Source: Jaminaea rosea (taxonomy: Eukaryota > Basidiomycota > Exobasidiomycetes > Microstromatales). Taken from it: a DNA stretch of 64,000 nucleotides. The translations under genes were made by a program, and so were the position numbers. The stretch covers positions 62,001 through 126,000 of the forward strand of contig NW_020289988.1 of NCBI RefSeq assembly GCF_003144245.1. Direction: 5' to 3'. Positions within the stretch are counted from its first letter, which is position 1. Every line of letters starts with the position of its first letter. The notes beneath the pieces are model-generated. The model was not told where the DNA came from. It was given only the letters and a program-made list of their open reading frames with translations, and did no database searches. Positions 18,639 to 64,000 of the stretch are shown here, one piece after another.

Positions 18639-19709
18639 ATGACGCCAGCACAGCTTGGCTTCAGCCAATCGCTCCCCACTTCTGCGAGTTCTTTCGCATT
18701 GAATGGCAGCCATCTTCACAAGCGGCGGCGCTCAAGGGCAACTTGTAGACGAGCGTCAGCGCAATCAGCCGTATCGCAGCCACACGCAGCGGCAGGAACG
18801 GGCAATGACAGCGATTCCGATGACGACGAGGAGCCTATCGAGCAGGGATCGTCGTCCTCTGAAACAATTGGTGGTCACCCACGCAAACGTCCTCACCTTG
18901 ACTCGAGTGACGTTGGCCGCTTTGCAAGCATGTCCATCGCGCCGATGATGCTTGACCTAGACGGCAGCAAGGATCCGGCGGACGATCACGATGCTGCGCC
19001 GCCCACTACACCCTGCCTTCCCGACTCGAGCTCGTCGTGGGGTGCTCCGCCAACCACACCGACGACTGCAACCGCACCTGCCGGTTCTACGTGGGAAATT
19101 GACCGCTACCGCACTTACGTGGCCAGCCTCGACGACGACGATGAGGATGCAAACGCGTACGTTCCTCCACAGCCCTCGAGCCCTCCACGCCGAGGGTCAA
19201 AGGCTACAATTCCCATCACTCGTCAGGAAGCGGAAGAGGTCGAACGCTTCAAAGCTGCCAAAGATCCGGTAGCGATGCAAGAGGGCGAGGGAGCGGAGCC
19301 TTGCTTGGAGGTGAACCCGGAGCTACTCGCCAAGCTCGAAGCACACTCCCAGGCGCTGCTCGTGGGTGGGGACATGAGTCGTCGTCGCGGCGTGCCAGAC
19401 AGAGATACTGCTCAGGGAAGTGAAGGCGCTCTGGTACTCTGGAAGAGCCCGGAACAATTGATGCAGCAGAGAGCAGAGTCGCGAGGTCACATCGCCTCGA
19501 CGCCCAACGCTTCGTCCAACTCTTCATCTGCGACGGCGACACCCCTCTCGACAGGCCACTCGACGCCAACAGCAGCAGGCAGTCACAATCACCAATCCCT
19601 TTTCGCCTTCGGTACCGCGTCGCCAGACGTGCCCTTCTCGCCCATCTTCACAGGAGCGGCTGCCGCTCTCCCCCCGAGCAACGAAGAGATGGAGATGGAC
19701 TACGAGTAG
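18639..19709 (+). CDS. Hypothetical nuclear-type protein with acidic and basic patches
   Basis: I do not recognise this 356-residue, single-exon protein. It has a basic bipartite patch near the N-terminus (HKRRRSRATCRRAS) and a second KRP-type patch (HPRKRPHLDSS). There are two acidic stretches (DSDSDDDEEPIEQG and SLDDDDEDANAY) and many Pro-directed phosphosites. These features suggest a nuclear regulatory protein. The block RKRPHLDSSDVGRFASMSI, with the nearby ITRQEAEEVERF helix, is the least repetitive part and the best place to search for homologues. It starts at the first ATG after a CT-rich leader and ends in EEMEMDYE. Confidence 0.65.
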   Translation: MTPAQLGFSQSLPTSASSFALNGSHLHKRRRSRATCRRASAQSAVSQPHAAAGTGNDSDSDDDEEPIEQGSSSSETIGGHPRKRPHLDSSDVGRFASMSIAPMMLDLDGSKDPADDHDAAPPTTPCLPDSSSSWGAPPTTPTTATAPAGSTWEIDRYRTYVASLDDDDEDANAYVPPQPSSPPRRGSKATIPITRQEAEEVERFKAAKDPVAMQEGEGAEPCLEVNPELLAKLEAHSQALLVGGDMSRRRGVPDRDTAQGSEGALVLWKSPEQLMQQRAESRGHIASTPNASSNSSSATATPLSTGHSTPTAAGSHNHQSLFAFGTASPDVPFSPIFTGAAAALPPSNEEMEMDYE

Positions 19710-20073
19710 CGGTCGTGCTCCAGTTGTTTTGTTCACGGAAGAGCCAATCTTTGTTTCCTTTGTCAACCTGTACCATATGCATTCAGCCTCATCTCGAATC
19801 GTCATGACGTGCCATCGTAGCCTCTCTCATCCCTGCATGGCTCGTGCGCGGGTCACACGCCCGTCCTTCCGGACTTTCGGGCGAGTGGAAAGCAAGTGGC
19901 GTCCGTCCGGCTCAAGAGCGAGCATCTTGGCTCTCTTTCGTCCGGTTTTCGCTGCCGGCAGTCGAGAGCCTCCTCCTGACCGGCGGTCTTGTATAACGGT
20001 CGAGCCACCTTTTCCTTTCCTACGAAGCTCTACAACGCTCTATTCCTCCCTCACTCAAGCTTGTCCTTCCATC
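19710..20073. other. Upstream region of the enoyl-CoA hydratase gene with an in-frame open extension
   Basis: This lies between the stop of the preceding gene and the chosen hydratase start. The hydratase frame stays open back through the region and contains upstream ATG codons at 19777, 19804 and 19837, all in frame with 20074. The last would add 79 mostly basic residues beginning MARARVTRPSFRTFGRVESK. A promoter and the neighbour's 3' end must also fit here, so the extension is only a possibility. Confidence 0.4.
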
Positions 20074-21091
20074 ATGCCTCGCACACCACCACCGCCGCGA
20101 GACCCTCCCAAGGTCGGCCCACACCTCCTCCTGTCCCAGCCGATTCCGCATGTCCTTCATCTCACCCTCAATCGCCCTCAAGCCATGAACAGCATGACCG
20201 ACTCTCTCGAAAAGGATTTGCGCGCCACTCTCAAGTGGTTCGAGGCCAACACCAGCCTGTGGGTTCTCGTCCTCTCCGGCAGCGGCAAAGCCTTCTGCGC
20301 AGGTCAAGACCTCAAGGAGTGGCTTGAGAAGCCTAAGCTCTCTGCGCAGAGGAGCAGGGCGACGGGAAATGTTCCTCTGCAGCATGAGAAGGATAATGCG
20401 GCTATGCTTCATCGCATGAAGGATTTGGGCGGCTTTGGCGGATTGAGCACGCGCAAAAGTAACAAGCCTATGATCGTGGCTGTGGATGGGTTGGCTATGG
20501 GCGGTGGAATGGAAATTGTCGTCAACATGGACATCGTCGTTGCCACGTCAAGGGCACGCTTCTCGCTGCCTGAAGTCTGTCGCTCTGTAGTTGCGGCTCA
20601 GGGCGGCATCCCTCGTTTGATGAGCATCGCAGGCCCGCAGCTGGCGGCAGAGATGTTGCTCACAGGACGCATCATCAGCGCACAAGAAGGGTATGAGCGC
20701 TTTGGCTTCATAAATGCTCTTGTCGACGTTGACAAGGCTGCCACGCCAGAGGACGGGCAAGCTTGTGCGCTGGAAAAGGCGCTGGAGTACGCCCAGCTCA
20801 TCGTAGACAACTCGCCAGAGGCGGTGCAGGTCACTAAGCGAGCGATGCGACTCGCGAGGGATGGCGTGGATGAGAGTGTGTACAAGAGTGCGGGGGGGAT
20901 TGCGAGTAGGGCTTTGTATGCGGGCAAGAACATCAGTGAGGGGTTGACGGCTTTCAAGGAGGTGCGTTCGACAGCGATGACGCGCGGGCATTCTCGACGA
21001 TGACAACAGCTGACTTGCGCTACGTCTTGCGCTTTGCCAGAAACGCAAGCCCCGGTGGTTCGACCCGCCGGCAATCAAGTCAAAGCTGTGA
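20074..21091 (+). CDS. Peroxisomal enoyl-CoA hydratase/isomerase family protein
   Basis: This crotonase-fold enzyme acts on acyl-CoA thioesters. Exon 1 is 20074..20961 and exon 2 is 21041..21091, joined across a 79-base intron (GTGCGT donor, GCCAG acceptor), giving 312 residues. The oxyanion-hole segments are FCAGQDLKEW and AMGGGMEIVVNMD; the catalytic-type Glu residues lie in GGGME and in LPEVCRSVVAAQGGIPRL. The last exon encodes only KRKPRWFDPPAIKSKL; its SKL end is a perfect type 1 peroxisomal targeting signal. Unspliced transcript would end 14 codons into the intron and lose the signal. The substrate is not fixed. Beta-oxidation is the default, but the position near siderophore genes recalls the peroxisomal hydratases that make acyl groups for hydroxamate siderophores. 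Confidence 0.88.
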
Positions 21092-21230: not shown

Positions 21231-21962
21231 CTACACGTAGTCATCGCCGTCGTATTCGAACGCGCGTCTCTCTGGGAGGGGCTTGAACCAGATATCGACT
21301 AGGTCGGGAATGGTCTCGTTGGTGAAGTCGGTGGGCCACTCGCCTGCGCGAAGAGGAGAGCAAAGCCCGATCAGCTCCAGCGCCCCCGGCATTGCTTCAG
21401 CTCCCAGCCTGTCGCCCTGCTAGCCCAATACGTACAGTCATCTTTGCGAGCCATAAAGAAACACTTTATCTCATGAAGAGGTCGATGAGGATCTCCGCGT
21501 CCCAGGCAGACCGCTATAGTGTCGATGGCCTTGCAATTCGGGTCCATGGATTCGTCGACTGCATATCCTCCTCCGCCGCAGGCAGTAGCTGCGCAGCCCG
21601 TGGCGCAATGAGCGAGCAGAGACATGTCAGTCAACCCGAGCGCAGCCGCAGCGATAGTGTCATGCCTGAAATCGTGGCTCACTGAACTCCAGACGACCTG
21701 GGCGCAGGATGTTGAATTCAGCAACCATCTGTCCGTACAGATTGCCCCACTCCTTGGCGCATCGATAGTCTGCATTGCCTGTCAGAGACTTGGAAACGTC
21801 CGCGATGCACAGTCGCTCGTATCCGTAGTCAAATGGCGAGTTGAAGCCCTCGAGCCAGCTGCATTGAAAGTGATCAGCACGGGAGAGGTGGGGAAACAGA
21901 GTGACGAAGAGCGCCGCAGTCGGAAACGCCACAGCAGGAAGCGCTTGCAGAATGGAAAACAT
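21231..21962 (-). CDS. Secreted cysteine-rich protein, family member 1 (8-Cys subfamily)
   Basis: Three exons (21962..21683, 21588..21436, 21343..21231) encode 181 residues. A signal peptide (MFSILQALPAVAFPTAALFV...HLSRA) precedes a mature protein starting near DHFQCSW. Eight cysteines follow, in the contexts QCSW, RLCIA, DYRCAKEW, TACGG, PNCKA, AVCLGRGDPHRP, IKCFF and DDCEWP, suggesting four disulphides. The second intron interrupts the Cys codon of DDC|EWP and the first is phase 1 after RLEF. Every feature is matched by the gene at 22390-23102 on the same strand. An N-glycosylation site (NET) lies near the C-terminus. I did not recognise the family. Size, secretion signal, cysteine content and clustering make it an effector candidate by analogy only. 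Confidence 0.85.
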
Positions 21963-22389
21963 GTCGCGGTGTCGCGTTGACTTGCGCTGCTAGACGGACA
22001 AGGAGCGATCTTATAGCCAGACAGAGCTGGTCTCATCCTCGACGACCGTATCGGTTCATCTTGGGATATCGGATGAGGCAATTGCGCCGGAGCGACGTTG
22101 TTGCGAGCCGCTGAGGACATCGTCGGTCACCACCACTCATTTTCACGTCCGAGTCACGCTGGATGCTCTTATCGCTGCTGCAACTCTCCACCATCAATAT
22201 GAATGGAATGATCATTCTCAGGAGGTGCTGCCTTCATCAGAGTCTGCTGACGCAAGAGGGAGAGTCACACTTCGCATCGTGCAGACACACCGACGACCCT
22301 CGAGCCCAGCGTCAAGCCCATCGTCAGCTCCGCCTGACCCCATTGCTGACGTCCCGCAGCTTCCCCCACTCTGGTCGTTGTCCACTGAG
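21963..22389. promoter_or_regulatory. Promoter of secreted-protein gene 1 and 3' end of gene 2
   Basis: A TTATCG element (GATAAG-type core on the gene strand) at about 22171 lies roughly 210 bases upstream of the start of gene 1. GATA cores are frequent by chance, so this is only a candidate site. Confidence 0.35.
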
Positions 22390-23102
22390 CTAATCATCGG
22401 CGCCGAGTCGGAGCTCGCGCTTCTCCGGATAGGGTAGATACCAGATATCGACCATGTCGGGGATACTGTCGTTCGTGAACATGGCGGGCCATTCGCCTGC
22501 ATGATCCAACGGAAGCAACGTGCGGTCAATACTACTCTAACAGACCCATCAACGATGAGCACGCACAATCGTCTGCGCGAGCCATGTAGAAACAGTTGAT
22601 CTCTTTGACAGGCCGATGAGGATCCCCACGGCCCAGGCACATAGCCATGCTATGTATCCATGTGCAGCTCGGAGACACCCATTTCGTCAGCGCGTAACCA
22701 TTCTCACCGCAAGCAGCAGCTGGCAGCCAGCATGTGCACAGAATAGATGTCATCATGCTTCAGCGTGGGTGTAAATCTCGCGCCTCACGCCAACTCACCA
22801 AACTCGAGGCGACCTGGGCTGAGTACGTTGAAGTCTGCCACCAATATACCGTAGGTCGTAGGCCACTCCTTGGCACAGCGGTAATCTGCGTATCCCGAAG
22901 CAGTCTTGGCCACATACGCCATGCAGGAGCGGTCATAGCCATACTCGAATGGAGAGTTGAGACCTTCTTTCCAGCTACAAACATGGTGATCGGCGAGTGC
23001 CAGCTGCGGGGCAAGCTGCGCTGCAAGAAGGAATAGCGCAGGTGCAACGAGGAGATGGTGAGGGGTCCAAAGCATGGTGGGCGGGCTTGAAGTTACTGGC
23101 AT
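22390..23102 (-). CDS. Secreted cysteine-rich protein, family member 2 (8-Cys subfamily)
   Basis: This is the closest paralogue of the gene at 21231-21962. Exons are 23102..22799, 22719..22567 and 22496..22390. A start at 23075 (MLWTPHHLLVAPALFLL...LALA) gives a more typical signal peptide and 178 residues; the upstream ATG at 23102 would give 187. The mature part begins DHHVCSWKEGLNSPFEYGYD. All eight cysteine contexts of gene 1 recur, including YRCAKEW, MCLGRGDPHRP and MARADDCEWP. Exon 2 is exactly 153 bases in both genes, with identical intron phases, proving recent common origin. The C-terminus diverges (YPEKRELRLGADD against PERRAFEYDGDDYV). Function unknown. Confidence 0.85.
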
Positions 23103-23628
23103 GGAGAGGAAAGCGTCAAGGGAGCAGGCCTATTTGAATCTCCCACGGCGTGGAAGATCAGATAAGCTGCTATCGGGACTAGCCGCGACGCTACCTCGCT
23201 CTCCCTTGATGCGATGAGACCGCCTCGGTTGCCCGGTGAGCCGTGGCGACCATACCTCGCCGACCTCCGTCCCACAACAATTGCCGTCGCTGAATACCCT
23301 CAGCCCTCGGAGAGCATCTTCAATTGTCGTCGTGTACAATGTAACAGTGGCCTATAGTGCCGCTGATGCTTTCAATCTCGTCCGTCCTGCGGCGACGCTC
23401 CGTTCACACTGACGCTCAGGAGACGTTTCTCTCACCGGCCTAGTCGCTATCCTCTCAAGCCTCTCACCTAAGCAATCCGAGTGCCCTCACAGTTGCTCCG
23501 CTAGATGCCGAGCAGTGATGGACCTTTTCCACGTTGCTCTCCATGAGCCAACGCAATCCTCTCTATCGCTCTTGCGCACCCACCCGTTCCTCCTCGACTG
23601 TCACGTCTGTTGTCGGCGCCACTGCGCA
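23103..23628. promoter_or_regulatory. Shared divergent promoter between secreted-protein genes 2 and 3
   Basis: This 526-base spacer is the centre of the head-to-head array. It contains CAGATAAGC at 23159-23167, a good GATA-factor-type core (AGATAAG), about 60 bases from the gene 2 start, and weaker GATAG cores towards gene 3. A regulator bound here could drive both subfamilies. This is inferred from layout only. Confidence 0.45.
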
Positions 23629-24426
23629 ATGGTCATCAAGCGGCTGACCTTCACGCTCATACAAGCACTGCTCACCACACTTCTCCTGCTACCGCGATCC
23701 ACGCTGGCGGAGCATCGAGTCTGCACATGGGACTTGGGTACGCACGATCCAGGACCGCATGGCTGGATCGACTTCTGCGACGCTTATCCCGTTGAGGAGC
23801 ACCATGTGAGTAGGCAGGCGAGAGGAGCCGTTGCGCACGCTTCAGGCCAGCTCAATGTCTCTGTTTTCCGCAGAACGGCACATACACATACCGCTGCGAG
23901 GAGAAGCCCGTCATAGGGCACGGTCGTCAGGTTGCTACATGGGGCCGTATCAAACCACGTACCATTGAAGTGGGTCAGTGCAGGGCAACGAAGCGCATTC
24001 CTCCAAAAAGAGCTCACCGACCTCCAAAACTTCACACATACTGTAGACAAACCCTGCTTCCGGGGCTTCGCTGAGCACTCCTGGCACTCGAATCCAGGCA
24101 AGTGCCATTGTTGGCATTCCTTCGCAGTGTGTCCTTGGCCGGAGTCAAATTTTCCGACGTGCTTTGGATGGAGCGCCCACGATGACTGCGAGTGGCCTTT
24201 CCCAACTGCTGCCCCCTACTACGTCTCCATCTATGCAAGAGGACATTTTGCTGAGGATGGCGTGGGGAAATGTGGGCCGAGGCTTGGCAGGCGAGACGGT
24301 GAGAATGCGACCATGCTCCTCGACGACGGGAGTTCGGCCAGTCCTCGAGCGTTCATTGACAACAGAACGACGCCGACGGGCTTCGTGAAGAAACGCGTTG
24401 TCCTAGTGAACAGAGATGCTCTTTGA
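23629..24426 (+). CDS. Secreted cysteine-rich protein, family member 3 (10-Cys subfamily)
   Basis: Three exons (23629..23805, 23874..23973, 24047..24426) encode 218 residues. The signal peptide is MVIKRLTFTLIQALLTTLLL...STLA; the mature protein starts EHRVCTWDLGTHDPGPHGW. Ten cysteines follow, in VCTW, DFCDA, YRCEE, KPCFRGF, KCHCWHSFAVCPWP, PTCFGW, DDCEWP and KCGP. The frame CxW...G...P...G...C, then YRC, a GRQVATWGRIKPRTIE segment (compare GQMVAEFNILRPGRLEF in gene 1) and DDCEWP, shows homology to the 8-Cys subfamily. Intron 2 is phase 1 at the same place as intron 1 of genes 1 and 2. The donor of intron 2 is a less usual GTCAGT. An upstream in-frame ATG exists, but 23629 gives a clean signal peptide. 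Function unknown. Confidence 0.85.
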
Positions 24427-24939
24427 GTCGGAAAAAGGCGGCGTCCGCAGTGGTGTGCGGCCTGGGCTGACGGTGACGGACGATACTGTGAAAATGCCGC
24501 CCTTCCATACCGCCTGACCAATCCTTCGAACCACTGTACTTTGCAAGATGATGCACCGCAATTGCCTTGCTCCCATGCTATTTGACCATGATCCGAAAAT
24601 GGCTGCCACCAGCTCGCCGAGATGAGAGAGGCTATCTCATATCGAGGATACGTTCAATCTCACCGCTCATGTCAAAAGCAACGCCGACCCAGATGCTTAC
24701 CAGAGCACGGCCGTAGATGACACTCTCACCGGTGTTCCCCCGAGCCCACTTGTTTTGCCAGAACGAATCACTTGCCCTCCGAGCAGTAGAAAAGGCCGAG
24801 GAAGCGCGGCGAAATTGCTCGTTGCTGCTTGCTTGACAAACTCATCAGATAGCTCCTTATCCAGCTCCGGCTTCATACTACTCTTCGCGCTGCCGCTGCC
24901 TTCTGCAGACTGCAATCTTTCCAAGCTTGCCACTACTCC
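24427..24939. promoter_or_regulatory. Promoter region of secreted-protein gene 4
   Basis: This 513-base spacer lies between two paralogues in tandem. Weak GATA cores occur (for example CAGATAGC near 24845). No gene or repeat was recognised. Confidence 0.35.
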
Positions 24940-25798
24940 ATGCCTACTACGATCACGATGCGTTTCGTCTCGCCGCTCCTTCCAGGTGTATTCGCGTTGA
25001 TGCTGCTCCTGTCCCTCCAGAATGCAGTGGCGAAACATCAGGTCTGCACTTGGGACTTGGGCACGCACGACCCAGGACCGCTTGGCTGGCACGATTTCTG
25101 CGAAGCCCACTCTATCGACAATCATGTGAGTAGGGCGAGCCGCAGCTGCGAGTTCACTCGCTTGACTGACTCACCGGTCGTCGCAGGACGGAACGTATAC
25201 ATATCGCTGCGACGAGAGGCCCAGAGTCGGGCATGGCCGCCAGGTGGCAACCTGGAACCGTATCGGGAAGCGGACCATTGAGATGGGTGAGTGTGACACC
25301 CGCATGCCCCCAATGAGCGTGTCTGATCCTCTTTGTCGTCGCCGCCCACCTTCCCCGCCTTCTCTTTGCACAGACAAGGGCTGCTATCGTGGCTTCGGTG
25401 AGCATGCAAGCCATGCAATGTCAGGCATGTGCTACTGCTGGAGGAGCTTTGCCGTCTGCCCGTGGCCTGTAACAACATTCACCACTTGTCGAGGATGGAG
25501 CGGCAAAGACGACTGCGAGTGGCCGATCCAGACGCCTCCGCCGCAGTACCTGTCCATCTATGCCCTGGACCACTTTCATGAAAAGGGACTCAGGCGATGT
25601 GGTCCCACGGTAGAGAGGAGCCAAATCGACGGGCGAGACGGCGTCAATGCGAGTGTGCTCATCGGCGATAATGACGAGCTGCACGAATGGGATGAGGGAG
25701 ACGAATGGGACGAGCGTGAGGAGGCGGACGACTGGAGCGAGTGGAGCGCACGCAACATGACGACCGAGAGAGGCGTCGTGGTCAATAAAGAGACCTGA
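24940..25798 (+). CDS. Secreted cysteine-rich protein, family member 4 (10-Cys subfamily)
   Basis: This is the tandem paralogue of the gene at 23629-24426. Exons are 24940..25125, 25187..25286 and 25374..25798, for 236 residues; exon 2 is 100 bases in both genes with the same phases. A signal peptide (MRFVSPLLPGVFALMLLLSL...NAVA, or six residues longer from the first ATG) precedes KHQVCTWDLGTHDPGPLGW. The ten cysteine contexts match gene 3 (KGCYRGF, MCYCWRSFAVCPWP, TTCRGW, KDDCEWP, RCGP). It differs by an acidic, Trp-rich tail in which WDE- and WSE-type units recur (HEWDEGDEWDEREEADDW, then SEWSARNMT), absent from the other three. That tail may be a quickly evolving binding segment. Function unknown. 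Confidence 0.87.
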
Positions 25799-28381: not shown

Positions 28382-30573
28382 ATGCAGCAACCTCAGCAAC
28401 AACAGGAACCTGAGATCTATGATCTCTTCGGCATTGGCTTTGGTGAGTTTGGCGGAGGGAGAACGAGCAGCCATTGAGGAAACAGGATCAGCTGATTCTC
28501 TCGTCCGCCTCTGTTGCCCTATTCAGGTCCGGCCAATGTCGCTCTGGCCATCTCATTGAGCGAGTCAGAGGAGGCGCAGAAGAGGGGACTGAAGTTTGGC
28601 TTCATGGAGCGACGTCCCAGCTTTGCTTGGTGAGTGAAGCGCAGCAGCGGTGGATCGCAGCATGATCAGGTACTCATCCTCATACTTGCCTCCCGCATAT
28701 AGGCACCCCGTTCTTCTGCTCCCCGGCGCCCAGCTGCAAGTCTCCCCTCTGAAAGACCTTGCCACCATGCGCGACCCGACTTCAACATTCACCTTCGTCA
28801 ACTACCTCCACAAGATGGGACGCCTCTCGGCCTCGATCAACCGCGAAGCCAACATCCCCTCTCGCAGAGAATGGAGCGCTTATCTCACCTGGTGCGCAGA
28901 GCGATTGAGCCACCTGGTAAACTACGGCGAGGAGGTCGTGTGCATCGAGCCCGTTGCCAATTACGGCAGCTCGCCCTCGTGCGTCGACCACGCGCTCAGC
29001 AAGGCTCAGCCTGCCTCGACGGGCAACAGTGTAAGGCTGCTCCGCATCACTTCCCGCCGTCATGGCTCAGACGAGCTCGTGGTCCGTCTCGCCCGGAACA
29101 TCACCGTAGGCGTGGGTGGCAGCCCCTCCATCCCTCACCAATTCTCGCACATCTACCCGAAGCAGCCCTGGGAGCAGGCTTCGCGCATCGTCCACTCGGG
29201 CACCTTCCTCCCTTCCCTCAACGCAATCGAGCCCGAGCTTGCCGCTGCCGTCGAGCAACGCCTGGGTCGAAGCTCGCCCGCCTCGAAGACGAACTGGCCA
29301 TTGCGCTTCGCTGTCATCGGTGCCGGTCAATCTTCAGCAGAGATGCTCCTCCACCTGCGTCGCACCTTCCCCTCAGCACATATCCAGATGATCTTCCGCG
29401 CTTCAGCGATTGTTCCCTCCGACGACTCGTCCTTCGTCAACTCGGCCGCCTTCGACCCGGAGCGCACCGATGCATTCTGGAAGGCAGGCGAGCAGGAGCG
29501 CGAGGCGTGGCGCACGGAATTCAAGCGTACCAACTACTCGGTGGTGCGCAACGATGTGTTGAACGAGTTGAGCGAGGTCATGTACGATCAGAAGATCGAG
29601 TTGCCTGCCCTGTACCCGGGTAGCGATGGGCCAGCGGAGGGGAGGGTGGAGATTACGCCCAACACGTTCGTGGAGACGGCGGATACTGTCAAGGTGGATG
29701 GACTGGAGCAGTGAGTGCGCGCTCCAAGATGAAGCATTGCAGGAACGCCCAGACTAACTTGACTCCTTTCCCGTGCACAGAGTCCGCCTCGTCATCAAAT
29801 CTATGAAGACAGCCGAGCCAGCCACCATGCTCGATTTCGATGCTGTCTTCATGGGTACTGGATTCATCCGCCGAGCAGACAGCCTCAACTTCCTTAGCCC
29901 CCTGCGCGACCACCTCCCCATCCTCGATGTTGAGAACGCTTCGAAGCGCCGCGCAGCACTCGGCTTCTCAGATGATGATGATACACGCACCATGGCTGGA
30001 GAGGACGAAGCGGCCAAGGAGATGGTTCGCGAGCGGGTACGCGGGATCACTCGCGACTACCGCTTGGTGCCATACTTGAGCGACTCCTTTACCCCCAAGG
30101 CACGGAGCTCAAGCCGTTCACCTTCAACCTCCGTTTCCCCGTCACGACAGCGCTCTGCGGCCTCGTCGCGCCGCAACAGCTCCACGTCGGACGAGACATT
30201 GGCAAACAACGGCGGCGAGTTCGAGGACTCTGCTGCCGCTCGCCCGCGCTTCGAGCCCAACATCTACTCCTTCGGCGGCAACGAGGCTACGCATGGTCTC
30301 AGTGACAGCCTGTTGAGCATCTGCGCATGGAGGGCAGGGGAGGTCACGGACTCGCTACTGAAGCGCTTGCCGCTGCGACCTGCAGTTGAGGGCGAGGGCG
30401 AGGGTGAGAAGGACTCTGCATTGGCAGATGCTGAGGCCAAGACGGCTGGAATTCTAGCCATTTCTGGCGGCGAGGCAAGACGGGCTTCGACGAGCGTGGA
30501 GACGGCCAAGGCCAAGGCGCAGGCAGCGGCGGCAAAGGTGTTGCCGGCATCGATGGCGCATCTCTCGATTTAG
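28382..30573 (+). CDS. sid1: L-ornithine N5-monooxygenase (siderophore biosynthesis)
   Basis: This FAD- and NADPH-dependent enzyme hydroxylates ornithine at N5, the first committed step of hydroxamate siderophore synthesis. Exons are 28382..28442, 28527..28629, 28703..29710 and 29781..30573, giving 654 residues. The FAD motif GIGFGPANVAL (residues 17-27) is split by intron 1. The segment LQVSPLKDLATMRDPTSTFT is a family hallmark. The NADPH motif VIGAGQSSAEMLLHL, the C-terminal FMGTGFIRR and HGLSDSLLSICAWRAGEV complete the signature. A Ser/Arg-rich low-complexity insertion (about residues 485-530) and an Ala/Glu-rich tail lengthen it relative to bacterial PvdA. It is preceded by GATA motifs and a probable leader intron. 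The partner NRPS lies about 25 kb away on the other strand. Confidence 0.95.
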
Positions 30574-55124: not shown

Positions 55125-58100
55125 TCACCTTGCACGCCCATTTGACGACCCATCTTTCAAGCAGCTGTCCACCCGCTCCACGATACGCGCAACCATGCTA
55201 CGAAGCTCGTCCTCACCCATGACCCTCGCGTCGCACCGAACGCCGAAGTCGACGGTCATCTGACCATCCTTGCCGTTGCTGACCACAACATCTACATCGA
55301 GCGTTCTCCGGCCAGTCGCCTCGCGCATCAGAGCGCCTGCTCCACCCAAGTTGCCAAACTCGTCGATGGGCGTCGCGAAGTTTTGCTTCTCGGATGGCGC
55401 AAACTCCACGGCGTCGCCCAGCGTGATTGCTTGCCAGCTATGAGCGGAAAGAAGGGACTCCGATGGCCGCATGATGACGTTCAAGTAGGTGTCGAACAGG
55501 GCCTCGCCACCTCCTCGTGCCCAATTGCAGACTGAGCCAAGATTGCTCTGCTCCCAGCGCATCCGCTCCAGCAACTGCGTGCGAAGGAGCTCGGCCATAT
55601 GGCTGAGCCCTGCCTCTGCTGGCGTTTGCATGGGCAAGACATTCATCGTTGGCGCAGCGAGTTGCTCCGCATCGATGTCACCGCCGTCAGCTGCTGCCCA
55701 GCTTGTTGCGCGTCCGGCTTGGTAGAGACCGAAGATGGGCCGATCGACATTGGTGAGGGCTCGCAGCTCGGCGCAGAAAGAAGCCATGAGGAGGTGCTGG
55801 ACCCGATGTTGCATGTGGCGAAACGAGAGAGTCATTGCTCTCGGGATGAAGAAGGCGACGTCCGTGCTGTCGCACGCCACATTCCGCCGTCTGCGTGCAT
55901 CGGACAGCATCGTAGGCTGCACGTTGGTGAGCTGCCCCTTCCAGAAAGCCGCCTCCTCCTCTGCACCTCCTTCGTTCGACTTGACGCGCCTCACGAAGCC
56001 AGCCCAATCATTCGCGCCCAGCTCTGCCGCTCCCTCCGCGTAGAGTATCTGCAAGTCTCGCACGAGCATGTCGAGGGACGAGGCATCATAAAGGGCGTGC
56101 GGGAGGTCAAGGATCAGCAGCGACTGCGTCGCGTTGGAGAAGACCTCAATTTGGGTCAATCCGCGGGAGAAGGAGCGCTCCGACCGCGTATGAGCGAGTT
56201 GCTGGAGACGGCCTCTCACAGCGGTGTCGAGGTCGCTGTCCCTCTCCACGGCAGGATGGACGGCGAGGTGGGGCTTCTCCTGAAGCACGATCTGGTACAG
56301 ACTGCCCTGCTCCGCGACAAAGGTAGTACGAAGGATGGCGTGGTGGGCACAGAGCTGGGCCCAGGCCGTCTCCAGCTTGTCGGCCTCGAGGGCTGGCTCT
56401 GCCTTCCAGACGAAAGAATAGAAGCCGCCCATGCGTTTGCCGCTGTTGAGCCAGCTAGCGAAATGGAAGGACTGGCCGGCGAGAGCGGGCAGAACAGCCT
56501 CAACGTGGTCGCTGCACAGGCTCAGTCGCTCAAGCAGCCGGTGCCTGACCTCTTCGCCTACAAGGGGAGCGGAGAACGATGGCATCGCCTCCTCTTTCTT
56601 CGTCATGCGCGCCTCGACCAGCCTCCCAATCCCCCGGATCGACATCCCATGCACCACATCAGCGACAGCCACCTTCATCTTGCCTTCTCTCTTCGCCAGG
56701 TTCGCGAGGCGGATCGCACTGATTGAGTCGAAGCCAAGAGAGGCAAGCGACGTGGTTGGAAGGACATGCCCCGATTTGGCTTGCGATATCGAAAGGACGT
56801 GCTTGAGAAGTTCCGATTCAAGAGGCGACCAACCCTGATCATCGCAGCCATCGGCAAGAGGGTGCGCGTGGATTCCATTCTGCTTGCTGGGCGGGAGAGA
56901 GGGATGCGAGGCGGGGAGAGCATCTGCTGGGCGCTCCAGATGCGTCAGAGAGTCGACAAAGACGTCCTCAAACCGTGTGAGTAGCACCTGAACCTTCCCC
57001 GAGGTGTAATACTGGGGGTCAGCGGTGACGTGAACGTCGAAATGATCGAGGCCTTGGCGAACCTCGATGTTGAAAGGATACTGCACGCCGCCTGCTACTT
57101 GACCTCCTGCTGACGAGGGTGGCAATGCAAGCTGCACTTTCTTCCACTCGTGACCATACGCCTCTGCTACCTGGTAATCGACGAGTACGTCAAAGGGTGC
57201 AGCGAGCAGGCCGAGCTCTCGCAGGATGTCTCGGAGAGCTGCGTTGGAATGGACGCGAGCCTCGTCTGCTTTGCGCTGGACTGTAGCAAGCAATTGCCCC
57301 ATAGTCGACTCGCTGCGATTCCACTGAATTCGTACGGGTACTGTGTTGAAGGCAGGGCCGAACACTATGTCACCGCCGGGGAAAGCGTCGCGCAGGCTGA
57401 CGATCTGACCGAGTACGATGTCGCGCGAGTGCATCGCGCTGGCCATGACTTTAGCGATTGACGCGAGAGCTACGGTGCGAAGTGAGACGGCTGCTGCGCG
57501 GGCCAACTTTCTCGCCTCCGACATTGGTATAGAGAGGCGTCGAGTTACCTCTAGAGGAGTGATACCTTGAGCACTGTCTTTGATCGGTTGACTCGGCTGA
57601 CATTCGAAGTCTCGCAGACTAGTAACCCAGTATCGGACGTCTTCGTCTCGCGGCAGAAGGTGAGGCAGCAGCTGGGTGAATTGCGGCCGTCGCTCCAGGC
57701 GCAGCGTTTGAAGCGCACTGTCCAGGTCAGCGAAAAGCTGAGGAAGCGTATTGCCGTCGTACAGAGCGTGGTGTATTGACAAAGCGACACAAAGTCCCCT
57801 GTTGGCGCCGTGAATGACGGTGAGTTGCAGCGGTGGCTCGTTGGCGAGTACGTCGTCCACAATAAAAGGGCACGGTCGCTGGACCAGCTGTTGCCAAGCA
57901 GTCTCGATCGACTCTGCCTTCTCTGAGAGGAGCGATGCAGACGTGGCAGCTCGTCGATGTACGGCTTGAACCCATCCTTGTCCTGATCGGCGTCGATGGA
58001 AAGTCGTCCTGAGGATTTCGGCGCTGGTGACGACCTTGGTCCACGCCGCAGCCAAAGCTTCTTCTGTCACGCCTTTGTCGAGGCGCAGCAAGTGGTGATG

Positions 58101-61100
58101 CCAATACAGCCTCCCGCCCTCAATGATGCTCTGCTCGATCATGCTTTCCTGCAGTGGCGTGCATGGAAGGACGGTCGTCACTTCGTCTTCGTTGGAGAGT
58201 CGGATAGCCACAATGTCGACCTCCTCTCGGGCCCCAGCTGCTAACTCTTCGGGGCGCGAATCCTTTCTCGATGTCGTGTTGAGGTATTCGGCGAGCCCCG
58301 CAATGTTGGACGAGCGCAGAATGTCCCTCACGGCTATGGCTCCCAGCCCTGCGTTTTTGATGCGGCGAGCGAAGCGAATGGCAGACAGACTGTCCAGACC
58401 AATGCTGTAGAAGGAGGCGGTACGGCGAATGTCGCCCTCTGACATGCCGCTGAGGTCTGACAAGATGTGACAAAGCTGCTGCTCCTGCGGTGACCACTCC
58501 TCAGCGTCGTTCTCGGCAGGTTCGTGCGAGGGGCTCAGCTGCAGCACCTCGACGTCGAGAGCGAGGAATGCCTTCTCCAAAGCCCGGATATCGACCTTGA
58601 TGTTAGGCGTCAGGGGCAAACCTCGCCGGGCTATGAGGATGTGACTGGGCACCATGTACGAGGGCAGCCGCCTGCGAACTTCGGCCGTAATGGAGTCGAG
58701 AGCCCATTGAGCGGCCGGATCCCTGCGTGTCTCGACGCTGCCGCCGGTAGCAGACTTCTCGCTCTCACTTGCCTCGGCGAGGGCAACCCATGTCACGAGC
58801 TGCTTCGCGGGCATGGATGGATGCTGGACGAATAAAGTTGCCGCGTCCGCTACAGCAGCTTGCGCACGGAAGGCATGGCTGACCTCGTCCAGCTCGAGGC
58901 GTTGACCGCGCAACTTGACCTGACCTCGACTGACGCGGCCCAACACCTCCACGGTCCCATCAAAGAGGATGCGCCCTCGATCACCAGTCCGATAGACGCG
59001 TTCGCCGCTCGGCATCGTGACGAATGCCTCGTGAGTGAGGTCTGGTCTCCCCATGTAGCCCTCGGCGACTTGTGGTCCACCGACGGCAAGCTCACCGACG
59101 CATCCCTTGTACGCGATGTCCGTTGAGCCAGGATTCAAGACATAGATAGAGCTCGTGGGGTAGGCTTGGCCGACGATGGAGCGTTTGAACCCAGGCTTGA
59201 CGAAGCCAAGCGTGTTACCAATCGTCGCCTCTGTCGGTCCCCACGCGTTGATGAGGCCGTATGGTGCCCACTCTGCTATCACACGCTCGTCGATGGCGTC
59301 GCCTCCGGACATGAGCCACTGCAGGCGTGGTACGGCGGTAGGACGAATTGTGGGAGCCAGGGAGGCGGGCAGATCTGCCATGGTCAGCTGCAGCTTGTTG
59401 AAGGTGTCTTCGAGATCTTCCAACAGGACGTCCTTTGGCGCACTTGCGACGGTGAAGCCGAATGCGAGAGGCATGCAAATTTCGATCAGGGAGACATCGA
59501 AAGAGGGCGATGCAAGTTGGAGCATGCGAGAGGAGTGATTGTGCGGAAGGATGGACTGCCAGGACAGGAGAGCTGCAGAGAGAGCTCGATGGCTGACAGG
59601 AACAGCTTTGGGGGCTCCAGTGCTGCCGGAGGTGAAGAGGATGTACGCCACTGATGAAAGGGGAGCGAGGGCTGGCGAGAATGCCGTCGAGGACGATCGT
59701 CCGTCGATCATGAGAACGTCGTCGGAAAGTTGTTCAGCATCGCCGCGTGTCGTACCATCTGTGACGATGAAATTGGTCTGCGCGATGTCGAGCATGTAGC
59801 GCAGTCGTTCGCGAGGAAGAGCTGAATCGAGAGGCATGTACGCCTTGCCAGCCTTCCAGACTGCAATAATCGATGCGTAGAAGAGGAGAGAGCGCTGCGT
59901 GTAGACGGCAACGGTGGGCGAGCGATGGGATACGAGCTCTGCCGCGATGCTGTCGCTCAAGCGGTCTAGCTCAAAATAGGTGAGGTGCTGGTATGGTGCG
60001 TCGAGGCCTTCGGCTGCGAAGTCAATCGCCCTGGCATCTGGACGTTGCTCGAGTTGTCTCCAGAATTGCCGGATGAAATGCGCGTCCAGCTCGTCGTCAT
60101 GGATCGTCTGCTTTTCTTCGATGACGGAAAGCAGTGAAATTTGTGATACTTCGGCCACCTGCCCGCCCTTGGCGTACGCGAGCAGCTCCGCATCGAGCTG
60201 CTGCAGGATGAGCTTTGCCTGCTCTCTTGGTATGTGATTCGGATCAAAAACAATGCGCAATGCAATCGAGTTGTCGTGTATCGGCTGAACCTCAAAGGCC
60301 ACCGGGTATTCGGTATCCATGCTTGCGTTTACAGGTCTAAGAACGTCGTGTGTTTGCGGCGGAGCAGTCTGCGGAAGGAATGAAAAGAGGGTATTGAAAA
60401 GTTGCTGATCTTGAAGGAGAAGCCATTGGTTGAGTTGCGCCAGGGGCGTATGCTGGTGAGCGTAACTGCTCAAAATGCTTTGGTGGACCGCTCGAGTGTG
60501 AGTGTTGGGGTCCCCGCTGCCGGCAAGGTGATCTGTACGGAAAGGGATTGTGGAGAGCAGAGGACCCTGAATCTTATCGGCACCTTCAAGAGGGAGTGTA
60601 CGACCGCCCAGAACAAGGCCGAAGATGGAATCGGCCTCGCCCGTGAGCTGGGAGTAGAGAGAAGAGAAAGCCGCAATGACGAGGGCCTGAGGAGTTACTC
60701 TGAGCCCTTGTGCGCTTTTCGAAAGCTCACTGAACGACAGCGACGACGCAGTCTCCTCCTCGCATCGTTGCCTCTGCGTGGCTTCCGTTGTTGCGAACTC
60801 GGACAAATTCGGCAAAGGCGTCAAGCTGAAATCTCCGAGCCTCTCCAACCAGAATGCCTTGGAGCCCTCCCCCGTACCGATCTGTGCGATCAGGTTTGCA
60901 GCCTGCCCAAAAGCGGGACGCTGTGGCTGAGGTTGCTCGCCGAGCCAGCCGAGCTCAACATCTTGCTGAAAGAGGTCAATGGTAGTACCATCGAAGAGAG
61001 CGTGATGCGCAAGGATGGTGAGCCAGTTGGCATCAAGGGAGAAGCGGACCGGCGGGCGCGTCGCAATGCTGTTGAGCAGCTCCTCTGACGCCGCGTCCAT

Positions 61101-64000
61101 ATCGAGGTCGCTCATCCATTCGACATCGACTGTTGAGGATACGAACTGGCAGAAATGACCGTCAAGCTCGACGAAGGCTGTCCTCCAGATTGAGTTCTTT
61201 TCCACAACTGCAGTGACTGTAGCCTTGAGGCGCTCGAGGTCAGCTCCCGGTGAGACGCCGAACGAGATCCGCGAGACGTAGAGTGCGTCTTTGCTGGCGA
61301 GCGATTGGAGAAGCAGCGACTCCTGCAGAGGCGTACATGGAAAGACCTCGCCGTCTTGATCTTGTAAGAGGCCCGCATCTCGTGCCTTGGCAGTCAGCGC
61401 GCTTGATAGAGAGTCGTGCATCTCTGCTTCCCCGTTTCTGCTGGCCTTCACAACATGAGTAGCGACGTCCTCGAGCAAAGAGTTCGCCATCAGGTCGGCC
61501 ACGGAAAGCTCATAGCCCTCGCGGCGCAGCCGGCTTACGAAGGTGATGGCTGATAGGCTGTCCAAGCCGAGCGCGAACAGGTCGTCGAACGGCGCAACCA
61601 TGCGATCGCCAGCAAGGTGGAGAGTGCTGCGCAGAGTGGTAACGAGCAGCGCCTCGATGTCGGTGAGAGCTCGGCGGTCTCCATTGGGTGCTGCCGACGA
61701 CGTCAGCTGGGCCACCTGATTGCTGAGACGGCTCCTCCATGCCTCGTGCACCGCCTTGACGTCGACTTTGCCCGAAATTGAAGCTAGAGGGAGGTGCGAG
61801 AGAGGCACAATGATGCTCGGGACCATGTGCGCCGGTAAGATTTCGCGCAATTTGCGCCAAGTCTGCTGCGTCGTAGCAAGCATAGCCGCATCAAGCTCAA
61901 CATGCGCGCCTGAAGGCGAGGTCGAGCGTCTTGCCATAAAGGAGACAATTTTCTCCTCATCCACGATAGAGACCGCGTTGACGCCTTCTTCGCCGGCGGC
62001 TTTGAGGACCGCCGCATCAACCTCGTGCAGCTCGAGCCTGGCTCCTCGGATCTTGACCTGGGATCCATCGATACGCCCAAGGTACATGGCTTCGTCATCG
62101 ACAGTGAGGCGCGCCAGGTCTCCTGTACGGTATGCTGGTTGCCCACCCCATGTAGTGAAGGCTGCAGATGCCTCTTGCCCCAGGTAGCCAGCACCGACTT
62201 GAGGACCGAGGATGCAAAGCTCACCGGGCTCACCGCGCAGCGTAGGTACGAGGGAATTGCTGCCTGGCTTAGTGATCAAGTATCGCGTTCCGTGAAAAGG
62301 GCGACCAATGTTGCTCGCCGAGGATTCAGGCCGGACACGAGCCATCGAGGACCCAATCGTCGCCTCAGTAGGCCCGTACGCGTTCAGCAAAGGCACCCTC
62401 GAGCCGGCCCACAAATCAATGACGTCCTGGCTGATCTTCTCTCCACCGACGATGAGAGCTCGAAGGGCAGGCAAATCCTGAGGAGCGACGCGCTTCCCCT
62501 GACTGAAGAAAAGGGACGGCACGACGGCTGCATGCGTGACCCTCATCCGTGCCATAGCTCGCCCGATATCCTGAAGAATCTCGGCGCGAGGAGCCGTCAC
62601 AATTGTGCCTCCTACGCGCAGCGTGAGGAACACCTCGAGAAGAGCGACGTCGAACGCCTCAGCTGATCGGGCAAGAAAGCGTACGCCTGAGTCTAATGAG
62701 CTGGGTGCTTCGTGCTCGAAGACAAGGCGAAAGGCTTCGACGGCGACGGCGAGATTGCGACGCGTGAGGCGGCAGCCCTTTGGCTTGCCCGTGCTGCCAG
62801 AGGTGTAAAGGATGTAAGAGAGGTCGTCTGGTGAGACACACGGGGGCTGATAGCTGGATGACGGGGGGAGACGGCGAGTGAAGGGATCGTCGTCACAGAC
62901 GAAGACCTCAGGGCCAGAGGGAAAACGATGGGCGAAGAGTGTTTCGGTGATCACGCCGGCTGCAGCGCTGTCTTTGACCAGCAGTTGCTGGCGCTGCTCC
63001 GGTAGGTTCTCGTCAATGGGTAGGTATGCCATGCCGCTCAGCTGCGTGGCCAGTAGGGCGACGTAGGAATATGGGCAGCGGCGAAGGCAGACTGCCACAA
63101 CCGAGCGCGACGGAAGAGCGGTGCTGAGGAGAGAGGCGAGGCGGCGGGCGTCCTCGTAGAGTTGACCGTACGAGACAACGCCTGGAGCTGTTGCATCGCC
63201 GAGCCCGTGCCAAAACTCGAGAGCAGGGGCATTGCCATGAGAAGCAGCTCCTTTAGCCAGCCACACCTCTACGCTCGCCTCTTGGTCGGCTGCTGCAACC
63301 GCTTTGTGGTGGCGATCTTGCGTGACTGAAAGTAGCCGCTGCTCCACTGAGCCCGTCATCCACCTTTTCACCTCGTCATCTAGGCGCTCAGTGAAGGCCT
63401 GAAGCGCCGCATCATACTGACTCAGCAGAGTCTCTGCGTGCCTGCCGTCCATCAGGTCGCTTCTCCAGTACAGGCCCAGCTCGAGGTTCCCCTCTGCATC
63501 GAGTAGAATCTCGATCGCTAGGGGATGCTCAACCGAAAGCTCCAAGTCGCGCACATGTTTCAGCGTCGTCGTTTTCTTGGGCGACGGGCCTCCCTCGAAG
63601 ACGAAGATGGACTGAAAGAGGCTCGCCGACGGCGAGAGCTCGAGGTGCTGTCTGACCCAGCTGAGCGAGACGTGTTGATACGCCAGCGTCTTGCGATGGA
63701 AGCCGTCGAGCTGATCCACCATCTTTCGCTTCGTGTTCTTCGGGTCCACGTGGATGGGCACGGGGACCGTAGCGTGTAGTGGGCCCCAGACATCGTCAAG
63801 TGCAGGCCCAACCGTACGGCCCGAGACGGAGTCGCCGAGCATGATCCATTCTGTCTCGAGGTATGAGGAGAGGATGAGAGCCCAGGCACACTGCGCTAGC
63901 GGACGAGCAGATGTGCCCAGTGATTGGGCGACGCTCGAGAGGGTGGCCCATGTGACGCTTGCTGTGCGGGAGACGCGGCCGAAGGTGGGCGCTGCACTTG
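55125..64000 (-). CDS. Siderophore-type non-ribosomal peptide synthetase, C-terminal part
   Basis: This multimodular enzyme joins hydroxamate ornithine units and other amino acids into a ferrichrome-type siderophore. The frame is open to the right edge (2,958 residues visible) and the N-terminus lies outside. Order, with landmarks by position: partial C1 (64000 to about 63300); A1 (YTSGSTGKPKG near 62800); T1 (LGLDSLSA near 61560); C2 (HHALFDG near 61000); A2 (FTSGSTGAPKA near 59630); T2 (IGLDSLSA near 58395); C3 (HHALYDG near 57760); T3 (LGFDSISA near 56730); C4 (PHALYDA near 56090). A terminal T-C pair without an A domain is typical of iterative ferrichrome synthetases, and there is no thioesterase. 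Both A domains keep the Asp that binds the alpha-amino group (FDVALLEVF, FDVSLIEI). No introns are needed in this part. Confidence 0.92.
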   Translation of the reverse strand, partial: SAAPTFGRVSRTASVTWATLSSVAQSLGTSARPLAQCAWALILSSYLETEWIMLGDSVSGRTVGPALDDVWGPLHATVPVPIHVDPKNTKRKMVDQLDGFHRKTLAYQHVSLSWVRQHLELSPSASLFQSIFVFEGGPSPKKTTTLKHVRDLELSVEHPLAIEILLDAEGNLELGLYWRSDLMDGRHAETLLSQYDAALQAFTERLDDEVKRWMTGSVEQRLLSVTQDRHHKAVAAADQEASVEVWLAKGAASHGNAPALEFWHGLGDATAPGVVSYGQLYEDARRLASLLSTALPSRSVVAVCLRRCPYSYVALLATQLSGMAYLPIDENLPEQRQQLLVKDSAAAGVITETLFAHRFPSGPEVFVCDDDPFTRRLPPSSSYQPPCVSPDDLSYILYTSGSTGKPKGCRLTRRNLAVAVEAFRLVFEHEAPSSLDSGVRFLARSAEAFDVALLEVFLTLRVGGTIVTAPRAEILQDIGRAMARMRVTHAAVVPSLFFSQGKRVAPQDLPALRALIVGGEKISQDVIDLWAGSRVPLLNAYGPTEATIGSSMARVRPESSASNIGRPFHGTRYLITKPGSNSLVPTLRGEPGELCILGPQVGAGYLGQEASAAFTTWGGQPAYRTGDLARLTVDDEAMYLGRIDGSQVKIRGARLELHEVDAAVLKAAGEEGVNAVSIVDEEKIVSFMARRSTSPSGAHVELDAAMLATTQQTWRKLREILPAHMVPSIIVPLSHLPLASISGKVDVKAVHEAWRSRLSNQVAQLTSSAAPNGDRRALTDIEALLVTTLRSTLHLAGDRMVAPFDDLFALGLDSLSAITFVSRLRREGYELSVADLMANSLLEDVATHVVKASRNGEAEMHDSLSSALTAKARDAGLLQDQDGEVFPCTPLQESLLLQSLASKDALYVSRISFGVSPGADLERLKATVTAVVEKNSIWRTAFVELDGHFCQFVSSTVDVEWMSDLDMDAASEELLNSIATRPPVRFSLDANWLTILAHHALFDGTTIDLFQQDVELGWLGEQPQPQRPAFGQAANLIAQIGTGEGSKAFWLERLGDFSLTPLPNLSEFATTEATQRQRCEEETASSLSFSELSKSAQGLRVTPQALVIAAFSSLYSQLTGEADSIFGLVLGGRTLPLEGADKIQGPLLSTIPFRTDHLAGSGDPNTHTRAVHQSILSSYAHQHTPLAQLNQWLLLQDQQLFNTLFSFLPQTAPPQTHDVLRPVNASMDTEYPVAFEVQPIHDNSIALRIVFDPNHIPREQAKLILQQLDAELLAYAKGGQVAEVSQISLLSVIEEKQTIHDDELDAHFIRQFWRQLEQRPDARAIDFAAEGLDAPYQHLTYFELDRLSDSIAAELVSHRSPTVAVYTQRSLLFYASIIAVWKAGKAYMPLDSALPRERLRYMLDIAQTNFIVTDGTTRGDAEQLSDDVLMIDGRSSSTAFSPALAPLSSVAYILFTSGSTGAPKAVPVSHRALSAALLSWQSILPHNHSSRMLQLASPSFDVSLIEICMPLAFGFTVASAPKDVLLEDLEDTFNKLQLTMADLPASLAPTIRPTAVPRLQWLMSGGDAIDERVIAEWAPYGLINAWGPTEATIGNTLGFVKPGFKRSIVGQAYPTSSIYVLNPGSTDIAYKGCVGELAVGGPQVAEGYMGRPDLTHEAFVTMPSGERVYRTGDRGRILFDGTVEVLGRVSRGQVKLRGQRLELDEVSHAFRAQAAVADAATLFVQHPSMPAKQLVTWVALAEASESEKSATGGSVETRRDPAAQWALDSITAEVRRRLPSYMVPSHILIARRGLPLTPNIKVDIRALEKAFLALDVEVLQLSPSHEPAENDAEEWSPQEQQLCHILSDLSGMSEGDIRRTASFYSIGLDSLSAIRFARRIKNAGLGAIAVRDILRSSNIAGLAEYLNTTSRKDSRPEELAAGAREEVDIVAIRLSNEDEVTTVLPCTPLQESMIEQSIIEGGRLYWHHHLLRLDKGVTEEALAAAWTKVVTSAEILRTTFHRRRSGQGWVQAVHRRAATSASLLSEKAESIETAWQQLVQRPCPFIVDDVLANEPPLQLTVIHGANRGLCVALSIHHALYDGNTLPQLFADLDSALQTLRLERRPQFTQLLPHLLPRDEDVRYWVTSLRDFECQPSQPIKDSAQGITPLEVTRRLSIPMSEARKLARAAAVSLRTVALASIAKVMASAMHSRDIVLGQIVSLRDAFPGGDIVFGPAFNTVPVRIQWNRSESTMGQLLATVQRKADEARVHSNAALRDILRELGLLAAPFDVLVDYQVAEAYGHEWKKVQLALPPSSAGGQVAGGVQYPFNIEVRQGLDHFDVHVTADPQYYTSGKVQVLLTRFEDVFVDSLTHLERPADALPASHPSLPPSKQNGIHAHPLADGCDDQGWSPLESELLKHVLSISQAKSGHVLPTTSLASLGFDSISAIRLANLAKREGKMKVAVADVVHGMSIRGIGRLVEARMTKKEEAMPSFSAPLVGEEVRHRLLERLSLCSDHVEAVLPALAGQSFHFASWLNSGKRMGGFYSFVWKAEPALEADKLETAWAQLCAHHAILRTTFVAEQGSLYQIVLQEKPHLAVHPAVERDSDLDTAVRGRLQQLAHTRSERSFSRGLTQIEVFSNATQSLLILDLPHALYDASSLDMLVRDLQILYAEGAAELGANDWAGFVRRVKSNEGGAEEEAAFWKGQLTNVQPTMLSDARRRRNVACDSTDVAFFIPRAMTLSFRHMQHRVQHLLMASFCAELRALTNVDRPIFGLYQAGRATSWAAADGGDIDAEQLAAPTMNVLPMQTPAEAGLSHMAELLRTQLLERMRWEQSNLGSVCNWARGGGEALFDTYLNVIMRPSESLLSAHSWQAITLGDAVEFAPSEKQNFATPIDEFGNLGGAGALMREATGRRTLDVDVVVSNGKDGQMTVDFGVRCDARVMGEDELRSMVARIVERVDSCLKDGSSNGRAR

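Follow-up and report, generated by a model that had tools for sequence, protein, structure and literature searches.

A large family of predicted secreted eight-cysteine proteins in the leaf-surface yeast Jaminaea rosea, with two arrays next to putative siderophore genes

The window studied here is the 64,000-nucleotide stretch C14:62001-126000 of the 16.6-Mb, 21-contig genome of Jaminaea rosea (Microstromatales, Ustilaginomycotina), and the genes in question are four paralogues in it, A to D, arranged head to head. Sequence comparison supports their assignment to an undescribed Jaminaea family of about 85 small, predicted secreted proteins, and the reading that we favour, with a probability of roughly 0.55, is that the family is a standing set of secreted, disulfide-locked binders for leaf-surface interactions. 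The array had been noticed in the initial annotation, an observation that was real but incomplete rather than wrong; its interpretation is supported in part: the undescribed family of secreted paralogues is supported and the smut effector cluster is not. The gene models in the window (window coordinates) were the following.

Gene A, 21231..21962, minus strand, exons 21962-21683, 21588-21436 and 21343-21231, 181 aa, 8 Cys
Gene B, 22390..23075, minus strand, exons 23075-22799, 22719-22567 and 22496-22390, 178 aa
Gene C, 23629..24426, plus strand, exons 23629-23805, 23874-23973 and 24047-24426, 218 aa
Gene D, 24940..25798, plus strand, exons 24940-25125, 25187-25286 and 25374-25798, 236 aa

The spliced models bore out four intact genes, two on each strand, with the same ends as first proposed. 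Each contains three exons, all eight introns are GT-AG and 61–94 bp long, no internal stop is present, and the middle exons match in size as had been reported (153 bp in A and B, 100 bp in C and D). The product of gene A consists of a signal peptide followed by DHFQCSW...DDCEWP; C and D carry the family domain plus a C-terminal extension, which in D (window 25600-25798) is acidic and rich in D, E and W. Protein B was letter-for-letter identical to P0001 (J. rosea BDZ90DRAFT_262143), an independent check of its splicing and the only one among the four genes; the relatives P0002 and P0003 of A and C (96–97% identity over 53–59 residues) are partial and unspliced and so give no such check.

Most of the common frame proposed for the four products was recovered: H..C[ST]W..G, YRC, G..VA and DDCEWP are present in all of them, together with further invariant single residues, but the [K/R]P element is found as written only in A and C, with SP in its place in B and GK in D. 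Identity is 56% between A and B and 26–27% between A and either C or D. A hidden Markov model (HMM) built from 35 intronless paralogues, with A–D left out, gave E-values of 1.1e-36 (A), 6.3e-36 (B), 1.9e-23 (C) and 1.6e-22 (D), far better than the best control (E 20 among four reversed and 100 shuffled copies), and the resemblance of A–D is therefore above chance. The paralogy first suggested by shared motifs is thus supported by the spliced models and by this profile.

The four genes are a minor part of the family, and the small four-gene cluster of the initial annotation did not survive the genome search. Six-frame searches gave 77 exon-wise matches with query A and 51 with query D, more than four genes can give. 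The family regions and some flanks were fetched (263 kb including the window) and searched with the family HMM, which returned 90 groups of matches; after one split gene was merged, at least 89 loci were obtained at 16 places (13 arrays of 2–19 loci and three single genes) on contigs C1, C2, C4, C7, C10, C14 and C20. All these figures are minimum values, because only the best candidates are scored in the genome search. Of 6264 reading-frame fragments from the fetched DNA, 136 were matched by the profile made without A–D, against 0 of 6264 reversed ones, and the sequence of P0008 (J. rosea BDZ90DRAFT_259682) corresponds to a family member on C4.

Models of 110 residues or more were obtained for 84 of the 89 loci, A–D included; two loci on C2 remained unmodelled, and three fragments on C20 (171.8, 177.5 and 211.1 kb) were likewise left out. 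Such broken copies within the C20 arrays point to the birth and death of genes. Several of the automatic models retain unspliced sequence or are uncertain at their starts, ends or junctions, for example at C1 272.0 kb, at C20 196.9 and 203.0 kb, and on C10 at 353.9, 354.9, 356.3, 357.3, 358.3, 360.9, 362.1, 363.3, 407.1, 409.9, 411.0, 417.9, 419.0 and 575.9 kb.

The family proteins share a layout of a signal peptide and a domain of about 125 residues with eight conserved cysteines, Cys1 to Cys8 being present, in that order, in 84, 79, 79, 75, 80, 84, 81 and 78 of the 84 models. The signal peptides claimed for A–D are predicted across the family: a hydrophobic N-terminal stretch, judged without a dedicated predictor, was found in 81 of the 83 models with a start, and 71 of 84 have Ala before the mature start. 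Near the mature N-terminus, 75 of 84 models have a histidine, which on visual inspection is the second residue past the likely cleavage site and may possibly serve as a metal ligand. At HMM positions 51–53, in the middle of the domain, there is a [YFW]xC element, with Y, F or W at 51 in 82 and C at 53 in 79 of the 84 models.

An intron at HMM position 76 (phase 1) occurs in 34 of 84 genes, among them all of A–D; 35 genes, including A and B, have one at position 121 (phase 1), which falls within the codon for Cys8, and 37 models are intronless. The shared intron positions argue for common descent of the family, with the caution that introns were picked partly by HMM score, which biases their counts in favour of the family frame.

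The family gives the impression of distinct proteins that have been maintained for a long time, rather than of a fresh burst or a young arms race. Median pairwise identity among 40 family sequences was 32%. No young duplicates were found among the 39 pairs with at least 52% identity: synonymous divergence (dS) was saturated in 16 of them and finite (0.99–3.56) in 23, for which the ratio of nonsynonymous to synonymous divergence (dN/dS) was 0.07–0.39, values that are rough because dS is large or saturated, and averages that single positively selected sites would escape. The diversifying evolution expected of an effector family was accordingly not seen in these ratios. In three near-orthologue pairs between J. 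rosea and metagenome sequences the mature proteins were identical at 127/129, 123/130 and 135/136 positions and the signal peptides at 15/20, 19/22 and 12/16, so that the mature part is the better conserved of the two. The metagenome proteins P0009 and P0010 lack a close counterpart in J. rosea (full-length identity 34–44% for P0009 and 34–37% for the top three of P0010), which indicates that gene content differs between relatives.

In a tree of 83 rows and 140 columns (one row with at least 40 gaps left out), in which many forks are unresolved, the contig labels changed 13 times versus 36.1 in shuffles, a clustering by contig as expected from local duplication. Genes A and B join the genes of C10 544-580 kb and of C1 (98/86), and C and D are placed on a long branch; the approximately unbiased test did not reject one origin for all of A–D (p-AU 0.40). 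A single clade for the 36 intronless copies outside C10, as would follow from a retroposed founder, was borderline rejected (p-AU 0.049) on this poorly resolved tree.

The initial annotation had not recognised the family, and neither did the databases. No Pfam model covers it: A–D fell into no Pfam family, and 33 members searched at E ≤ 1 gave weak matches only, to IL6Ra-bind (2/33, E 0.003), fn3 (1/33, E 0.068), DUF1039, a myosin SH3 model and PIR (1/33, E 0.28). An NCBIfam search returned one chance match, no sequence relative was found in the PDB with D searched singly or with the family profiles, and no description of the family was found in those parts of the Jaminaea literature that were available. 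The homology search, which reached close relatives only, found Jaminaea proteins and metagenome relatives; a match to a well-described non-effector family across saprotrophic fungi did not appear.

AlphaFold2 models of two family members predicted an all-beta fold. Comparison with the PDB (VIA-align for model 1, Foldseek for the second model) gave no significant match for either, and Foldseek listed none at E ≤ 0.001 for the second model. Both models weakly resemble chains of the beta-sandwich type, namely Avr2 of Fusarium, which like ToxA belongs to the ToxA-like proteins, and MATH and fibronectin-III (FnIII) domains; IL6Ra-bind and fn3 are two of the five weak Pfam matches. Avr2 was tied with the unrelated MATH and FnIII folds, and a ToxA-like fold is a weak lead.

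P0001 is named "Cyanovirin-N domain-containing p.." in UniRef, which would make the family lectins of the cyanovirin-N type (CVNH, PF08881), which are likewise small beta proteins, all-beta and disulfide-rich. The sequence and profile tests rejected this identity: PF08881 was found nowhere in the genome (exon-wise, E ≤ 10), in none of A–D (E ≤ 10) and in none of 33 members (E ≤ 1), and the profile–profile comparison of the family with cyanovirin-N gave a probability of 0.1%. The CVNH fold was not among the structure matches listed, an absence that is uninformative. A cyanovirin-N lectin family is accordingly regarded as very improbable.

With a predicted secretion signal, a conserved cysteine frame and an all-beta model, the family would work as follows. 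The signal peptide would direct the protein out of the cell, and four disulfides would lock the compact all-beta domain. That domain would then serve as a rigid extracellular scaffold for binding, with parts that vary from one paralogue to another. The targets may be microbes in competition with the yeast, the surface or the apoplast of the plant, or a small molecule that has been released. This leaf-surface binder reading is favoured because it fits the habitat, the number of genes and the constraint best.

Several points weigh against it. The constraint is measured by the rough dN/dS values given above, and a structural surface protein would show it equally. Two other orthologue pairs run in the reverse direction, the mature part being less conserved than the signal peptide (P0003-C 38/61 versus 25/27; P0007-B 69/92 versus 25/28), although P0003 and P0007 read on into intron sequence. 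Since no fold match rose above noise, it is the beta fold and the cysteines that suggest a binding scaffold, and the distribution of the family beyond Jaminaea is known from homology searches of close relatives only.

The constraint bears also on the proposal that the proteins are structural or adhesive, that is, wall or extracellular-matrix components of the yeast cells or hyphae which diversified for different growth forms. Purifying selection and conserved mature domains agree with it, and J. rosea also grows as a filamentous form according to the available part of one study (PMC7766764). Many intronless members, however, end a few residues past the domain, which leaves little room for a wall anchor (glycosylphosphatidylinositol anchors were not tested for), and so many divergent copies are, in our judgement, unusual for a wall component. 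On balance a structural role appears rather unlikely.

If J. rosea were instead a plant parasite in its yeast stage, the family could be used on a host as plant-directed effectors, as in smuts, and this was the frame in which the four genes had first been placed. The species was isolated from the Plumeria phylloplane in Florida (PMC8880017) and is counted as a phylloplane fungus in PMC7766764, and in the portions of these two papers examined no host or disease is named for it, an absent record being no proof. The absence of recent duplicates and the overall constraint are unlike an ongoing host arms race, and the resemblance to Avr2 is shared with the unrelated MATH and FnIII folds, with no Foldseek match at the threshold used. 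Plant-directed effectors are therefore thought possible but unlikely.

As described in the part of PMC9816061 consulted, the Tin2-like effectors of Ustilago maydis, of the same subphylum, are likewise secreted species-specific paralogues in arrays and scattered copies, and with about 30 members are among the largest families reported there. Compared by description only, the J. rosea family differs in its at least 89 loci, its eight-cysteine domain, its occurrence in a leaf yeast without known disease and its still alignable paralogues. The effector families of Blumeria and Puccinia covered there, which are extremely expanded, are alike in scale (at least 100 there) and in a [YFW]xC element, but these fungi are obligate biotrophs, and the J. 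rosea motif lies mid-domain. A string so short and common gives no evidence of kinship with the powdery mildew and rust effectors, and the likeness is probably convergent. A precedent for a leaf-dwelling fungus with a secreted protein directed against a microbe is the GH25 lysozyme of a phyllosphere yeast, in the accessible text of PMC7870139; it is an enzyme of known family, whereas the J. rosea family matched no enzyme family.

Lineage-specific families of secreted paralogues are thus a known kind, and what is new here is how large the family is in a leaf yeast, how old it appears to be and that it lies next to siderophore genes. About 85 such genes in the 16.6-Mb genome of a leaf yeast without known disease would show that expansion is no mark of parasitism, would caution against effector calls made from clustering and cysteines alone, and open an undescribed domain family to characterisation.

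The position of the A–D array brings in a further reading. The neighbouring genes in the window were as follows.

SidH-like enoyl-CoA hydratase, 19462..21003, plus strand, best PDB match the SidH mevalonyl-CoA hydratase 7oeq (1.6e-43; next match 1.2e-33)
L-ornithine N5-monooxygenase (SidA/Sid1-like), 28638..29711, plus strand, PF13434 at 8.9e-59
Nonribosomal peptide synthetase (NRPS) frame with adenylation, thiolation (T) and condensation (C) domains, 55128..63998, minus strand, running off the window and ending C-T-C by domain spacing

The SidH-like gene lies immediately to the left of the array and the SidA-like gene to its right; the latter gave the genome's single strong match to PF13434, two further ones scoring 2e-6 and 6e-5. 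Together with the NRPS about 25 kb further on, they give this part of the window the appearance of a hydroxamate-siderophore region.

Condensation-domain matches at E ≤ 1e-10 were found at two loci only, the window NRPS (55128-63998) and C10:391.4-402.5 kb. At both, the last condensation-domain matches (on C10, the last three) are 505–706 bp apart, a spacing too short for an adenylation domain between them, so that the C14 synthetase has one terminal T-C and the C10 synthetase a T-C repeat. These are, as far as PMC2644324 could be consulted, the arrangement of U. maydis Sid2 and the common layout of ferrichrome synthetases, respectively, and by this analogy we infer that both NRPSs are ferrichrome synthetases. 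In the available text of PMC10098057 on the U. maydis genes sid1, sid2 and fer3-fer8, corresponding enzymes are described for the hydratase (Fer4/SidH), the ornithine monooxygenase (Sid1) and the two ferrichrome-type NRPSs; no secreted cysteine-rich array is named there, and fer8 is called hypothetical.

An array of 11 family genes on C10 (404.1-421.0 kb) starts about 1.6 kb after the last condensation-domain match of the second NRPS. When the 16 family places were distributed at random, the coincidence at the second NRPS alone had p 0.019, and that at both siderophore loci p 2.4e-4 (tight) to 8e-4 (wide). A–D and the C10 404-421 kb array might therefore be expressed under the same control as siderophore synthesis, and their products might help to capture iron outside the cell, for example by binding ferrichrome-type siderophores or iron. 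The iron-related function that the initial annotation had mentioned in passing gains support from the position of A–D between siderophore genes, but the coincidence was noticed post hoc, and 13 of the 16 family places lie elsewhere. Moreover, no siderophore-biosynthesis domain was found in the 31 of 54 non-family frames scanned in the fetched stretches, and the PF13523 acyltransferase matches, on C1 and C2, are near no family array.

The upstream regions tell for and against such a link. Two matches to ATCWGATAR, which we take to be the iron-type GATA-factor consensus, occur in the window.

ATCAGATAA, 23157..23165, plus strand, candidate GATA-factor site 82 bp upstream of the B start; at least one in 24/100 window shuffles
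ATCAGATAG, 24844..24852, plus strand, the same motif ending in G, 96 bp upstream of the start codon adopted for D

Among the family genes only B and D have this motif, it is absent at the SidH-like and SidA-like genes, and its count is not significant, 24 of 100 window shuffles reaching two. The sequence ATCNGATAA lies upstream of one of the four window genes, two of the 11 genes at C10 404-421 kb and none of the 68 others, that is, only at the two siderophore-locus arrays. Across the 83 family upstream regions HGATAR was not enriched (52 seen versus 50.1 expected), and a GATA motif as family-wide regulator was rejected on this count; its density was higher in the four window genes (six sites) and the 11 genes of C10 404-421 kb (10) than in the 33 of C20 (16) or the 26 others of C10 (14). 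GATAAG occurred 15 times versus 8.8 expected, the largest shuffle also giving 15, and TATA, CCAAT, stress response element (STRE) and StuA motifs were not enriched in the same regions. Iron-type GATA control of the window and C10 404-421 kb arrays is a hint, no more.

Taken together, a siderophore-linked role for these two arrays is the boldest of the leads still in play, a tentative reading that we hold to be unlikely. If it were true, a protein layer would be added to fungal siderophore biology. A bolder version, which we consider improbable, is that Jaminaea recruited the family into its siderophore economy: A–D and the C10 404-421 kb proteins would be extracellular binders of ferrichrome-type siderophores or iron, with which the yeast would keep, shield or steal siderophores on the leaf, and the scattered paralogues would bind other, perhaps foreign, siderophores. 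Such a family would be a fungal counterpart of the siderophore-binding proteins. The likelihoods attached to the different readings need not sum to one, because the readings overlap, and the favoured leaf-surface binder could itself bind a siderophore or a plant target.

The 31 scanned neighbour frames included CorA, a Na/Ca exchanger, a sugar transporter, a P450, a kinase, coproporphyrinogen oxidase and others, many of them without a family. The lone member at C20 274 kb lies about 4 kb from one of the four loci of TRI12-type transporters (major facilitator superfamily), with a coproporphyrinogen III oxidase gene nearby, which as an iron link is too little to use. In the window, housekeeping genes (BET bromodomain, ArfGAP and MCM2) stand between the SidA-like gene and the NRPS.

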